Part shown: positions 2,466-62,555 of the stretch, one piece after another
Layout of the letters: each line of letters begins with the position of its first letter
Numbering within the stretch: the first letter of the stretch is position 1
NCBI RefSeq assembly: GCF_001308875.1
Contig: NZ_KQ465107.1
Location: 124,001-188,000, forward strand
Length of the DNA stretch: 64,000 nt
Reading direction: 5' to 3'
DNA from: Lysinibacillus sp. ZYM-1
GTDB taxonomy: Bacteria; Bacillota; Bacilli; Bacillales_A; Planococcaceae
Program-made: the position numbers and the translations under genes
The notes under the pieces: model-generated
What the model saw: only the letters and a program-made list of their open reading frames with translations
Databases searched by the model: none
What the model was told of the DNA's origin: nothing

Positions 2466-2738
2466 CAACAACACATTGTAGGCCAAGATTGGAAATAGTA
2501 AAAGTGGTTGTGTACTTGTAGAGAGCCGATGGTTGGTGTAAATCGGTAGACACACATTTTGAACTCGTCCATGAGCTACTCCCTGAACAATTTAGTAAGG
2601 GATGTCGGTTTCCCCCGTTAACAGGATAGACAGTGATAGCTGTCGATAAGGGGACTTTTTCTGTAAAGAAAAGGTCAATTAGAGTGGTACCGCGAGCATA
2701 AACTCGTCTCTATTTTCAGATAGAGATGGGTTTTTTTG
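2466..2738 (+). promoter_or_regulatory. T-box riboswitch (leucine specifier) upstream of leuA
   Basis: Class I T-box leader that reads uncharged tRNA. The conserved T-box antiterminator sequence AGAGTGGTACCGCGAG is at 2681-2696. The AGAGAGCCGATGG stem I base element is near 2520, and the specifier-loop region GAACTCGTCC contains CTC (Leu) at 2564-2566. An intrinsic terminator (stem around CTCTATTTTCAGATAGAG plus a T run) occupies 2702-2738. When leucyl-tRNA is uncharged, the antiterminator forms and leuA is read. The specifier was chosen by position and agrees with the gene's product. Confidence 0.93.
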
Positions 2739-6087: not shown

Positions 6088-6388
6088 GGTAAAAAAAAAT
6101 CGCCCTAATCAAATCTGATTAGGACGAGTATACCCGTGTTACCACCTATATTTACAAATAGCTCACACTATTTGCCTCATTCAGTACGTCTCCATCTAAA
6201 TAAGAGATACTGCCGCTGTTGTAACGAGTGCCCATCTCGTCGTAATCTACTCGCTAAAAAGCTTTCGGTACGAAGCTCAAAGGTCATTTTCAAAAGGGTT
6301 CATTTACCTCATTTCCACCAACAGAGGCTCTCTACAAAATGCTGATCCAATTTACTTTTCCTTTTCAATGCTTTGTCTATAGGATTGG
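6088..6388 (-). promoter_or_regulatory. T-box riboswitch (methionine specifier) upstream of metG
   Basis: Read on the - strand, the T-box antiterminator sequence AGGTGGTAACACGGG lies at 6133-6147. The AGAGAGCC stem I element is near 6330. The specifier loop contains ATG (Met) at 6285-6287 within TGAAAATGACC. A terminator hairpin (CCTAATCAGATTTGATTAGG plus a long T run) occupies about 6090-6125. The ATG specifier matches the methionyl-tRNA synthetase downstream. Confidence 0.93.
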
Positions 6389-7148: not shown

Positions 7149-7574
7149 TTAATTATCAAAAAACTCCATATGTAATTTTTCCTTCTTATAATAATCCAAA
7201 CGATCTTGCAAAGTTCCCGTATGAAATTCAAACTTATGTCCATCAGGGTCAGTAAAGTAGATTGATTGTTTATCTTTTTCATCTCTTTGTCGACCATCTA
7301 AAATATTGACCTTCAATTGCACCAAATGATCATACATTTTATCGAATTCATCCTCAGAGATAGTGAAAGCGATATGTGTATAGGAGTGAATGATGTCATT
7401 GCGCGGGATATCTTTTTCTACATTAAGGGCAAGCCACAGCCCATTTACATCAAAATAGGCTGTGTTGTTCCCCTTTACTAATAACTTGGCATCGAAAACA
7501 TTTTCATAAAATGCAATGGATTTTTCAAGATCAGACACTGAAAATAATAGATGATTGATGCTTTGTATTGTCAT
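7149..7574 (-). CDS. fosB: FosB-type bacillithiol S-transferase (fosfomycin resistance)
   Basis: A metal-dependent enzyme that opens the fosfomycin epoxide with bacillithiol. It is a single glyoxalase/VOC-fold protein of 141 residues. The three metal ligands of the family are present (His8 in INHLLF, His67 in SYTHIAF, Glu116 in GHKFEFHTGT). The C-terminal GTLQDRLDYYKKEK stretch is very close to B. subtilis FosB. The position equivalent to Cys9 of some FosB enzymes is Leu, as in B. subtilis. Start is the ATG at 7574 with AGGAG ahead; the in-frame ATG at 7592 lacks a proper site. It follows rsgA by 14 bases, so is probably co-transcribed and subject to the attenuator at 8752-8945. Confidence 0.92.
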   Translation of the reverse strand: MTIQSINHLLFSVSDLEKSIAFYENVFDAKLLVKGNNTAYFDVNGLWLALNVEKDIPRNDIIHSYTHIAFTISEDEFDKMYDHLVQLKVNILDGRQRDEKDKQSIYFTDPDGHKFEFHTGTLQDRLDYYKKEKLHMEFFDN

Positions 7575-7588
7575 ATGTGTGCTCCTAT

Positions 7589-8659
7589 TCACTTTTTTCC
7601 TTTTTTAAATCCTTTGGAAATTTGCTTCCACTTACGTTGCTCCTCAAGCTTAGCCTGCACATTTGTTTTACGTTCCATATAAGCCAATTCCCTTTGTAGC
7701 TTAAAATAACTTTGCAGACGGTATTGATCGAGTTCACCATCTGTAATTGCTTGCCGCACTGCACAATAAGGCTCATTTTGATGCGTACAATCACGATAAC
7801 GGCAAGCTGTTGCTAATTCCTCAATATCTTGAAAGCTAGAAGTTAAACTATCACCTTGATTCCATAATTGTAGCTCACGCATTCCTGGTGTATCAATCAA
7901 ACAACCGCCAGCAGGTAACATTACTAACTCTCGATGGGTCGTTGTATGGCGCCCCTTAGCATCATCCTCACGAATCCCTGCTACCTTCATCAGCATTTCG
8001 CCACATAGCGCATTCGTTAATGTGGATTTCCCAGCACCCGAAGAGCCTAGTAATGCCCCAGTGACACCCTCTGTAAATAATGCTTGAATGTCTATTAGGC
8101 CTTCTCCAGATACAGCACTCGTTACAAAAATATCTACACCAAAGGCTATAGATTCAACTTCTTGCACTAAACTTGAAGCATCCTCACACAAATCTGCCTT
8201 TGTCAGAACAACAATGGGCTTTGCACCTGAATCCCAGGCAGCCACTAGATATCGCTCCAAACGACGAATATTAAAATCAGCATTCAAGCTCATGACAAGT
8301 AACACAATATCCACATTCGATGCAACAATTTGTTCCTGAATTTCCGTACCAGCCACTTTTCGTGAAAAAGCAGATTTTCGTTGGAATAATTGATGAATAA
8401 TTGCCCGTTCCTCACCAGGCATTTTCTCCACCAATACCCAATCACCAACTGCTGGGTAATCTTCTCGAGCTAAAGATGTATAGGCATAATGACCAGCAAT
8501 TGTCGCAAGCCATTCCCCTTCTTGTGCTAACACACGGTAGGAATGCTTATGCTCTAAAGTAACCCTCGCAGGCACACAATTCTTAAACTTAGTCTGTTTC
8601 TTCATTTCTATCATTTGTTCTTCAAAATACGTTGTAAAACCTAATGTTGTTAAATTCAA
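7589..8659 (-). CDS. rsgA: RsgA-type circularly permuted ribosome-assembly GTPase
   Basis: GTPase that acts on the 30S subunit during late assembly. The motifs come in permuted order: G4 TKAD (153-156), G1 GSSGAGKST (205-213), G3 DTPG (256-259). The N-terminal OB-fold precedes them, and the C-terminal zinc knuckle follows (Cys286, Cys291, His293, Cys299). At 356 residues it is longer than the usual 290-300-residue RsgA/CpgA, with an N-terminal extension and a basic tail (KGFKKGKK), so it may be a second, accessory paralogue. Start is TTG at 8659 behind a full AGGAGG. It follows an attenuator with a translated leader and precedes fosB, which suggests control by translation stress. Confidence 0.92.
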   Translation of the reverse strand: MNLTTLGFTTYFEEQMIEMKKQTKFKNCVPARVTLEHKHSYRVLAQEGEWLATIAGHYAYTSLAREDYPAVGDWVLVEKMPGEERAIIHQLFQRKSAFSRKVAGTEIQEQIVASNVDIVLLVMSLNADFNIRRLERYLVAAWDSGAKPIVVLTKADLCEDASSLVQEVESIAFGVDIFVTSAVSGEGLIDIQALFTEGVTGALLGSSGAGKSTLTNALCGEMLMKVAGIREDDAKGRHTTTHRELVMLPAGGCLIDTPGMRELQLWNQGDSLTSSFQDIEELATACRYRDCTHQNEPYCAVRQAITDGELDQYRLQSYFKLQRELAYMERKTNVQAKLEEQRKWKQISKGFKKGKK

Positions 8660-8751
8660 TTTATTTTCCTCCTAAATGTGCATATCTATGATGCCTCTGC
8701 CTAGACATCAGCCAGAGACTTCATCTTGATTCATCAAATTTTGAACCACGA

Positions 8752-8945
8752 TAAAAAAACCTTGTATCTACGCAATTCGGTAGTTACAAGGTTTCACACG
8801 CACGTTTAAAAGGATATACAAATACCTCGAGCTAAGCACGACGTCACTTTGTATATTTTAGGCGTGTGAAATGAAACAAACCGAATTGCAGTTCGCTAAA
8901 AATAGATCTATTCATCATGTCACATCACCTACTTTCCATTTAGTT
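8752..8945 (-). promoter_or_regulatory. Predicted ribosome-mediated transcription attenuator upstream of rsgA-fosB
   Basis: Read on the - strand. Stem A is GCAATTCGGT (8889-8880) with ACCGAATTGC (8781-8772). Stem B is TTTCACACGC (8871-8862) with GCGTGTGAAA (8801-8792). Stem C is ATATACAAA (8856-8848) with TTTGTATAT (8822-8814). All three are exact and nested. The 3' arm of A lies in the loop and inner stem of a terminator (CCTTGTA/TACAAGG plus CTAC/GTAG, 8791-8760) followed by seven T (8759-8753). Stem A and the terminator therefore exclude each other. The 5' arms of A, B and C are all inside the 24-codon leader ORF, so ribosome position should decide which structure forms. Confidence 0.82.
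8844..8918 (-). CDS. Leader peptide of the rsgA attenuator (24 codons)
   Basis: Short ORF starting with two ATGs (8918 and 8915) behind AAGTAGGTGAT and ending at TGA 8846-8844. The product begins MMNRSIFSEL and ends HFTRLKYTK. Codons 10-13 form the 5' arm of stem A, codons 17-19 overlap stem B and the last codons overlap stem C. It carries Arg19-Leu20-Lys21, matching the +X+ pattern (Arg/Lys-X-Arg/Lys) at which macrolide-bound ribosomes are known to stall, as in ErmDL. Its role as a sensor, not a working protein, is inferred from position and overlap with the stems. Confidence 0.72.
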   Translation of the reverse strand: MMNRSIFSELQFGLFHFTRLKYTK

Positions 8946-8951
8946 GTTACC

Positions 8952-8980
8952 AATATAGCTAAAATTTAGGGAATTGTCAA
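8952..8980 (-). promoter_or_regulatory. Sigma-A promoter of the rsgA leader
   Basis: On the - strand TTGACA (8980-8975), a 17-base spacer, then TATATT (8957-8952). It predicts a start near 8945, about 27 bases ahead of the leader ORF. Confidence 0.8.
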
Positions 8981-33073: not shown

Positions 33074-33368
33074 ATCAAAAAAATCCCTCCAAGTATTTTG
33101 GAAGGATTAGTCGCTACATATCATACAAAAATAAGCTTTTGAAATAGCTATTTTTGTTACTCCATTGCTTATTTAAGACATAGTAAAATAAGCTTGCGAA
33201 GTAGCGCTTTATTGGCTCATTAAGACCAATAGAAGCTTTAATTATGGAAAATGGGCAGACTAATCCTATTTTTGTTGTTCGTGAAATATAAAATTTCATG
33301 TGCAAAAAATAAGATTAGTTATTCATTAGCCACCCATCGTCCCTTCATCGTTTATTACCGTCATTGTA
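33074..33368 (-). promoter_or_regulatory. vmlR transcription attenuator
   Basis: Read on the - strand. Region 1 (33319-33303, ACTAATCTTATTTTTTG) can pair with region 2 (33274-33259, CAAAAATAGGATTAGT) over about 16 bp. Region 2 can instead pair with region 3 (33111-33103, ACTAATCCT). Region 3 is the 5' side of the terminator (AATCCTTCCAA/TTGGAGGGATT plus seven T, to 33076). So 1:2 favours termination and 2:3 favours readthrough. Short start-stop ORFs overlap region 1 (such as ATG AAT AAC TAA). A TACAAT -10 is at 33368-33363. B. subtilis vmlR is known to be controlled by attenuation. Confidence 0.8.
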
Positions 33369-62390: not shown

Positions 62391-62555
62391 TTCTTATCAA
62401 GAGAGACGGAGGGATTGGCCCTATGAAGTCTCAGCAACCAGCTCAACAGTATGGTGCTAATTCCTATTGGCAAAATTTTTAGCCTTAAGATGAGAAGACG
62501 AACTACCATTGTTTGATTCAGGGAGTCCTCTTCTATAGAGGACTCTTTTTTATTT
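62391..62555 (+). promoter_or_regulatory. SAM-I riboswitch (S box) with terminator
   Basis: Aptamer at about 62391-62500: P1 arm TTCTTATC, then AAGAGAGACGGAGGGATTGG, CCCTATGAAGTCTCAGCAACC, GGTGCTAATTCC and closing GATGAGAA. Terminator stem GAGTCCTC/GAGGACTC plus T run at 62523-62555. The P1 3' arm (AGAAGA) can pair with TCTTCT in the terminator, giving the antiterminator. With SAM bound P1 is stable and the gene is shut off. Confidence 0.94.

Follow-up and report, generated by a model that had tools for sequence, protein, structure and literature searches.

A uORF-containing leader resembling ribosome-arrest transcription attenuators precedes an RsgA-family GTPase paralogue in Lysinibacillus

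According to our analysis, the leader of rsgA2, a gene for a paralogue of the RsgA-family GTPases in Lysinibacillus sp. ZYM-1, is very probably a transcription attenuator that responds to ribosome arrest on a short upstream open reading frame (uORF). It lies on the minus strand at 8753-8980 of the window, by which we mean the whole stretch of 64,000 nucleotides analyzed here.

Anatomy of the leader

The elements of the leader follow one another in the order promoter, uORF, stems A to C, and T-tailed terminator, and behind them come rsgA2 and fosB (Table 1). A first, sequence-only reading of this DNA had described a consensus sigma-A promoter, a 24-codon uORF with its own ribosome site, three stems with their 5' arms in the uORF, and a terminator whose loop serves as the 3' arm of stem A. 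All of these are present: the promoter hexamers agree with the consensus in all but one base, stems A, B, and C are exact in the window with every 5' arm inside the uORF, and the terminator loop plus 2 nt makes up the 3' arm of stem A ahead of the T-run. That reading had also taken the stems to be mutually exclusive, which is true of A and the terminator but not of the other two, since B overlaps the terminator by 3 nt and C is compatible with it; in the predicted fold of the free leader RNA, most of B and C coexist with the terminator. Its comparison with antibiotic-type attenuators stands as far as a translated-leader attenuator in which arm A of the uORF competes with the terminator is concerned, but it had overlooked stem D, the pairing of the uORF ribosome site with uORF codons 17 to 20, which covaries across the family. 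About 95 nt separate the terminator from the TTG start codon of rsgA2 at 8659.

Table 1. Features of the rsgA2 leader and the two genes behind it, in window coordinates
Feature	Position	Strand	Remarks
Sigma-A-type promoter, TTGACA-17-TATATT	8952..8980	-	11/12 consensus bases
Stem D, 5' arm; contains the uORF ribosome site	8920..8931	-	Swap test
uORF ribosome site, AGGTGAT	8924..8930	-	Sequence; no variation in 28 genus rows
uORF, 24 codons, peptide MMNRSIFSELQFGLFHFTRLKYTK	8844..8918	-	24 codons in 28/30 genus leaders
Stem A, 5' arm (antiterminator); uORF codons 10-13	8880..8891	-	Exact pairing part 8880-8889
Stem B, 5' arm	8862..8871	-	Family support weak
Stem D, 3' arm; second half of uORF, overlaps B 5' arm	8859..8869	-	
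Stem C, 5' arm	8848..8856	-	90.2% of genus cells paired
Stem C, 3' arm	8814..8822	-	
Stem B, 3' arm	8792..8801	-	
Intrinsic terminator with T-run 8753-8759	8753..8794	-	Arms 8780-8794 and 8757-8771 (one mismatch), loop 8772-8779; double changes at 3 pairs in the genus
Stem A, 3' arm; terminator loop + 2 nt	8772..8781	-	
rsgA2 ribosome site, AGGAGG	8668..8673	-	Sequence
rsgA2, RsgA-family GTPase paralogue, 356 aa, TTG start	7589..8659	-	PF03193 1e-51; TIGR00157
fosB-type bacillithiol transferase gene (FosM)	7149..7574	-	NF038306, 258.3 bits (cut-off 255); ATG inferred

The leader folds at -54.9 kcal/mol, compared with -38.6 +/- 3.7 kcal/mol in 200 shuffles, none of which was as low (z-score -4.4). 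A simple terminator scan gave no hits and thus did not return the leader terminator. No Rfam family matched the leader at gathering score, which rules out a known Rfam element as its identity; the weak matches below gathering reached 23.4 bits on the opposite strand, where the threshold was 50, and 21.7 bits on the leader strand, where it was 80. Elsewhere in the window there are T-box leaders at 2476-2714 (+) and 6117-6377 (-), the latter preceding a methionyl-tRNA synthetase gene downstream of rsgA2-fosB, as well as a SAM riboswitch at 62391-62496 (+); the sequence at 33077-33358 (-) matches the Bacillus sRNA ncr1575. A palindromic-looking element, GACATC.GCCAGAG..., lies 3' of the leader terminator (8704-8717 and flanks). 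It occurs in a single exact copy in the window, recurs in relatives (L033, L095, L096, and L153), with similar DNA inside the leader loop in L095 and L096, and is possibly a small mobile repeat.

Conservation and covariation

When a 296-base leader query was searched against 61 genomes, 32 of them from the same genus including the window's own, the leader was found in 30 of the 32 Lysinibacillus genomes and in none of the 29 others. G008 and G030, the genus members in which it is missing, are also without rsgA2 and have only a housekeeping match of the 1e-29 type. Many of the more distant leader matches extend from query base 1-6 to 232-236, that is, from the promoter through the terminator; matches to query bases 57 to 90 in G002 and G027 were rejected as leaders, since an unrelated 369-aa gene that shares the ribosome site begins there. 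All 30 genus leaders have the uORF frame with its ribosome site, and in two of them (L004 and L005) loss of the stop codon extends the uORF to 28 codons, with a peptide ending in RRRA.

In an alignment of 28 of the 30 leaders (L008 and L011 were left out, their letters being identical to those of L007 and L010), stem A is 99.4% paired, and in three rows (L028 to L030) one of its A-U pairs has become U-A, the uORF codon CAA changing to CAT together with the terminator loop. In the terminator, both partners have changed at three pairs. Stem C differs between rows mostly by G-U wobble, stem B is exact only near the window (24 of the 28 rows cannot form its pair at columns 71-160), and stem D varies in one row only and is hence uninformative within the genus. 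Taken jointly, A, B, and C beat shuffles both in cells paired and in covariation score (1/500 each); the number of their pairs changed on both sides, two, was no better than in shuffles (103/500) or slid structures (up to 3). Within the uORF, synonymous divergence amounts to 0.216 in codons 3 to 9, 0.029 in codons 10 to 13, 0.048 in codons 14 to 20, and 0.198 in codons 21 to 24, next to 0.261 in rsgA2 codons 2 to 18, and since synonymous sites are slow in the stem arms, the RNA constraint sits there. With a pN/pS ratio of 0.57 in uORF codons 3 to 9, close to the 0.45 of rsgA2, the early uORF peptide may be mildly constrained. The sequence-only reading had staked its proposal on conservation of the uORF and of stem pairing in relatives, and both are conserved.

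Outside the genus, an rsgA2-type protein search matched all 261 family genomes, many via the housekeeping gene only, and 17 of the 19 family genera have at least one protein match of 1e-60 or better. We examined the DNA upstream of 40 rsgA2 orthologues from other genera, picked for spread, and found in 38 of them a uORF, a terminator, and a duplex between the two of -12 kcal/mol or lower, a cut-off chosen after the first swap-test results. The two misses are L077, whose uORF is visible by eye, and L094, with a duplex of -9.1 kcal/mol. Where several frames fitted, the one nearest to the gene was taken, with a choice by hand in L089, L101, and L143. Applied to the 62 genes of the window with any fitting frame allowed, the same rule found 14 with a uORF-like frame, three with a terminator as well, and a single gene, rsgA2, passing all. 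A promoter of at least 9/12 lies upstream of the uORF in 83 of 86 family leaders versus 20 of 86 single shuffles.

Covariation across the family was assessed by alignment-free swap tests, in which the energy of a leader's own duplex is compared with those of duplexes with swapped partners over 20,000 permutations. The set comprised the 87 family leaders whose terminator folded below -12 kcal/mol (L077 and L117 are not among them), merged at 72% uORF identity into 23 clusters; this also merged duplicate fetches (e.g., L072/L106, L091/L109, L086/L113, and L092/L114). Across these clusters, which share ancestry, so that the permutations are not independent events, stem A gave -16.4 kcal/mol for own against -10.0 kcal/mol for swapped partners (0/20,000), its reversed controls showing a small effect of about 1 kcal/mol that comes from composition (123 to 181/20,000). 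For stem D, tested as the ribosome site against the uORF from codon 5 onward, the values were -17.1 and -13.1 kcal/mol (0/20,000), with reversed controls near zero (-0.16 and +0.19). The effect was weak for stem B (-12.8 versus -11.6; 311/20,000) and absent in the 23 clusters for a control pairing of the ribosome site with the terminator core (P = 0.85). In 22 of the 23 clusters, L082 being the exception, the partner of stem D starts downstream of where arm A begins, and in five of these it overlaps the arm. The covariation anticipated by the sequence-only reading is supported for stem A, by the swap test and a compensatory change in the genus, and for the terminator, by its double changes in the genus, but only weakly for B, while C varies mainly by wobble pairs. 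It is on such comparative sequence evidence that the uORF, the promoter, the terminator, and pairings A and D rest. A TTNTTT motif, which in vmlR serves as a pause motif, precedes the terminator in 11 of the 23 cluster leaders (shuffled mean, 4.9; 6/2000) and is absent from the window leader.

In a class-wide search of 398 genomes (family included), 187 had a match at 1e-60. Inspection by eye of leaders from other families revealed some in which the terminator loop GGGCTGTGC stands against CACAGCCC in the uORF (e.g., L133, L134, and L145) and others with no terminator and possible masking of the rsgA2 ribosome site (e.g., L140, L142, and L148). For 22 nonfamily loci in 19 clusters (L129, L141, L149, and L150 were left out), the swap of the uORF against the downstream leader gave -29.1 for own versus -24.2 for swapped partners (0/20,000), with no effect in the reversed control. 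A uORF was seen by eye in L149 and none in L150.

A wider scan, of which the best 80 of at least 528 relatives were kept, reached Bacilli, Clostridia, Cyanobacteria, Alphaproteobacteria, Planctomycetota, and others. Among these best 80 of at least 528, a rule-based uORF was found at 54 of 79 testable rsgA2-lineage loci (L190 falling outside the 79, and L153 and L162 being scored as misses despite a partly visible leader), versus 12 of 129 neighboring genes with free upstream space. Only 1 of 30 housekeeping rsgA genes had one; most of the 30 sit directly behind another gene, which leaves them no room for a leader. In swap tests with nonoverlapping uORF and downstream pieces, in which the uORF of 12 loci was hand-chosen among several, own and swapped energies were -28.7 and -21.3 in 32 Bacilli (0/20,000; reversed, 465), -22.0 and -16.6 in 9 Clostridia (0/20,000; reversed, 147), and -33.7 and -28.6 in 13 members of other phyla (1/20,000; reversed, 2,321). 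Swapping the ribosome site against the uORF gave, of 20,000 permutations, 0 in Bacilli (reversed, 170), 694 in Clostridia (reversed, 11,045), and 96 in other phyla (reversed, 3,454). Since near relatives were left unmerged in these tests, we regard the figures from outside Bacilli as a good lead rather than a result. Judged by sequence, uORFs follow the rsgA2 lineage across phyla, more widely than had been guessed. The same logic seems to be built with different RNA outputs: the window's family and further Bacilli have a terminator, and Clostridia and some other Bacilli appear, by eye, to mask the ribosome site.

Predicted ribosome positions and alternative explanations

The folding of the leader suggests how such a switch would operate. 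By default, the uORF would be read through, or its ribosome site would be folded into stem D, and the terminator would form and stop transcription. A ribosome held at the first codons (about 4 to 6 here) would instead cover the 5' side of stem D and of the local uORF hairpin, and arm A, lying just downstream of the ribosome, would be freed to pair, as the RNA emerges, with the loop and 3' arm of the terminator. Stems B and C would lengthen this antiterminator, and the polymerase would continue into rsgA2 and fosB. We infer that the arrest would be caused by a translation inhibitor or an assembly fault and that RsgA2 would then help 30S subunits or ribosomes under that stress.

The ribosome positions that would open the switch were modelled by folding 23 leaders with the ribosome footprint held single-stranded. 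The mean terminator probability was 0.92 without a ribosome, 0.60 with a ribosome at codon 1, 0.80 at codon 6, and 0.95 to 0.96 at codons 13 to 19, and in this equilibrium folding a ribosome at codon 1 brought it below 0.5 in just 8 of the 23 leaders. In the window leader, the terminator was relieved at codons 4 to 6 (0.7, 0.5, and 0.4). The trend was unchanged with three footprints, which for the window leader at codon 5 gave 0.77, 0.54, and 0.16. A few leaders also open at late codons, L101 at 24 to 27 and L120 at 29 to 30, and L082 and L085 do so partly. In nascent RNA ending at A, arm A was paired in all 23 leaders with a ribosome at codons 1 to 4, in 14 at codon 7, in none at codons 13 to 15, and mostly again with the ribosome at the last codons; without a ribosome, it was paired in 19 of the 23. 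By the terminator-probability scan and these nascent-RNA folds, early arrest is predicted to open the switch and a ribosome over codons 10 to 15 to close it, and the earlier proposal that a stalled ribosome frees arm A and weakens the terminator agrees with the models mainly for early arrest. The ribosome-free state depends in the models on kinetics, and the absence of a ribosome may not mean "off," as ribosome-free nascent RNA favors A in 19 of 23 leaders.

The pairing of arm A in ribosome-free nascent RNA would also suit a sensor of initiation capacity, in which a uORF left untranslated by a shortage of competent 30S subunits opens the switch and RsgA2, by maturing or recycling 30S subunits, restores them, in a homeostatic loop rather than in response to a drug. 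RsgA is indeed termed a putative 30S maturation factor in the portion of PMC3669203 drawn on here, and vmlR is, according to an excerpt of PMC9226507, constitutively induced by ribosome assembly defects; because vmlR is so induced, an rsgA2 loop answering 30S trouble is a serious alternative. We nevertheless consider it unlikely, since full-length free RNA favors the terminator (0.92), since stem D, which covaries, sequesters the uORF ribosome site and has arm A inside it, an arrangement that disfavors a switch that is on when untranslated, and since a peptide motif that tracks arm A from its upstream side points to arrest at set codons.

This motif, [IV][VAI], occurs upstream of arm A in 17 of the 23 clusters at a spacing of 2 to 5 codons, most commonly 3, and its position tracks that of the arm with a Spearman coefficient of 0.85, although the test uses the last motif before arm A, a choice that favors correlation. 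Because the position of the early motif tracks arm A, the sequences suggest that arrest occurs at a fixed site and not on the start codon. In a set of 42 uORF clusters (without L117, L129, L141, L149, and L150, and with L077 added by hand), I[VA] is found at residues 4 to 9 in 16, versus 3.3 expected from shuffles (0/5,000). Short as the likeness is, the early I[VA] resembles the motifs IFVI and IAVV of erm leaders. Within Lysinibacillus, I[VA] is poorly kept, the uORFs having I, V, or A at the motif place followed by F or I. Two cyanobacterial loci of different genera, L183 and L189, have alike uORF peptides before rsgA2 (MTVFTAISVEISPQNRRK... and MTEFIAIAVRVEPSPQNRNK...), hinting at peptide conservation.

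All 16 clusters with I[VA] use ATT as the early Ile codon, and L085 and L103 contain III, as might be expected of a trp/ilv-type attenuator that senses amino acid starvation through Ile codons. Such a mechanism is very improbable and was rejected: most uORFs in Lysinibacillus encode V or A at this place, single-codon runs are rare among the uORF clusters, and the controlled gene is not biosynthetic. ATT is also used in GC-rich-looking leaders such as L080 and L142, which could reflect a constraint at the RNA rather than the peptide level. Equally remote is a leader bound by a ligand or protein, with the uORF incidental, for which we found no supporting point; no Rfam family matches the leader at gathering, and the uORF is kept despite great RNA divergence and, by eye, different outputs. 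That the stems arose by chance within an ordinary leader, as two-copy short repeats often do, is scarcely credible and was rejected in view of the shuffles (fold z-score), the swap tests, the genus conservation, and the passing of our rule by 1 of 62 window genes.

RsgA2, its neighbors, and known attenuators

The RsgA2 protein scores 179 bits with TIGR00157 (cut-off, 100) and 175.6 bits with PF03193 (cut-off, 30), staying below cut-off for two narrower RsgA models (179 of 360 and 127 of 483). Twelve solved sequences match it, RsgA/EngC chains among them, the best being 1t9h, followed by RsgA chains such as 5no2 and 7boi. GSSGxGKS, DTPGMRE, H238, and C286/C291/H293/C299 are invariant in 15 rows, so that what we take to be the GTPase and zinc-site residues are intact. 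The genome has a second RsgA-family gene on another contig, 31% identical to rsgA2 and without a uORF, which is the housekeeping copy; as the sequence-only reading had it, the leader does stand before an extra RsgA. In a tree of 93 proteins, 81 rsgA2-type rows are split from 12 housekeeping rows by a 100/100 branch, and the window gene does not group with the housekeeping copies. Loci with uORFs are scattered over the rsgA2 side, requiring 19 changes versus 29.7 in shuffles. Some genomes contain three or four RsgA-like matches (G001, G014, G015, G016, G024, G028, and others).

The FosB-type gene starts about 14 nt after the rsgA2 stop codon if its ATG is at 7574 and is likely cotranscribed with rsgA2. 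The sequence-only reading had the leader control both genes; rsgA2 and then fosB do lie downstream, but the leader is tied to rsgA2, and fosB is a neighbor at the genus level only. A FosB-like gene flanks 29 of the 30 genus rsgA2 loci (the exception is L061 in G012) and, among 120 loci searched, L151 and L152, also from Lysinibacillus, but none of the other 118; the downstream DNA available in L066 to L105 was 15 to 1578 bases long (median, 1515). Because fosB adjoins only within the genus, the leader belongs to rsgA2, and fosB was rejected as its reason.

By structure, the rsgA2 leader would work like the vmlR and hflXr attenuators, whose type features it shares: a uORF between promoter and terminator, an intrinsic terminator, and an exclusive antiterminator partly encoded in the uORF. 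Its anatomy closely matches that of the vmlR leader of Bacillus subtilis, with D, by inference, as the anti-antiterminator at the uORF start, A as the antiterminator, and the terminator thereafter. As outlined in the portion of PMC9226507 consulted, the vmlR uORF lies within an anti-antiterminator hairpin, and an arrested ribosome leads to the antiterminator, so that intrinsic termination does not occur; early arrest, predicted for rsgA2, and the chromosomal location of the gene add to the likeness, and vmlR is also induced by ribosome assembly defects. vmlR is, however, an ABC-F gene with a predicted minimal uORF of three codons, whereas the rsgA2 uORF has 24 codons with arm A inside it. In the hflXr/rli80 leader of Listeria monocytogenes, as far as the part of PMC6310831 used here describes it, a ribosome GTPase likewise stands behind a uORF transcription attenuator; it differs in belonging to the HflX family, in its 14-aa uORF with an RLR motif, and in that induction and resistance were demonstrated for hflXr, the rsgA2 leader being known from sequence. 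The toiL uORF of Escherichia coli topAI is similar in that one uORF senses several kinds of translation stress but differs in unmasking a ribosome site, in Rho dependence, and in its toxin-antitoxin target (PMC12121999, in part). An rsgA attenuator or leader was described in none of the literature matches listed, and in the portions of PMC6912228 and PMC10502375 at hand, rsgA and leader peptides or ribosome stalling co-occur only via an ErmBL title in the references.

In leaders of the ermC/ermA class, arrest on the leader peptide also frees an RNA arm, but there it is translation of an rRNA methylase that is attenuated. Loss of YloQ in B. subtilis is said to have been found by Campbell in 2005 to sensitize cells to ribosome drugs. 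In laboratory E. coli, loss of rsgA raises susceptibility to gentamicin and cefotaxime, as stated in an excerpt of PMC10295648. Attenuators with such a uORF are most familiar from drug resistance genes, and here a probable one stands before a paralogue of a 30S-assembly GTPase. Since similar arrangements recur in distant bacteria, the sequences suggest that rsgA2 helps cells cope with blocked protein synthesis. There is, we think, an even chance that RsgA2 is an unrecognized, phylum-crossing translation-stress GTPase, a candidate that would be kept silent by uORF attenuators, turned on at ribosome arrest, and protect or recycle ribosomes as HflXr does. The covarying leader, present in nearly every family member tested, hints at a role of RsgA2 under stress and offers an inducer assay, and it bears on why many Bacilli have two RsgA genes. 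If RsgA2 does protect ribosomes from a class of drugs, it would be an overlooked factor of intrinsic tolerance.
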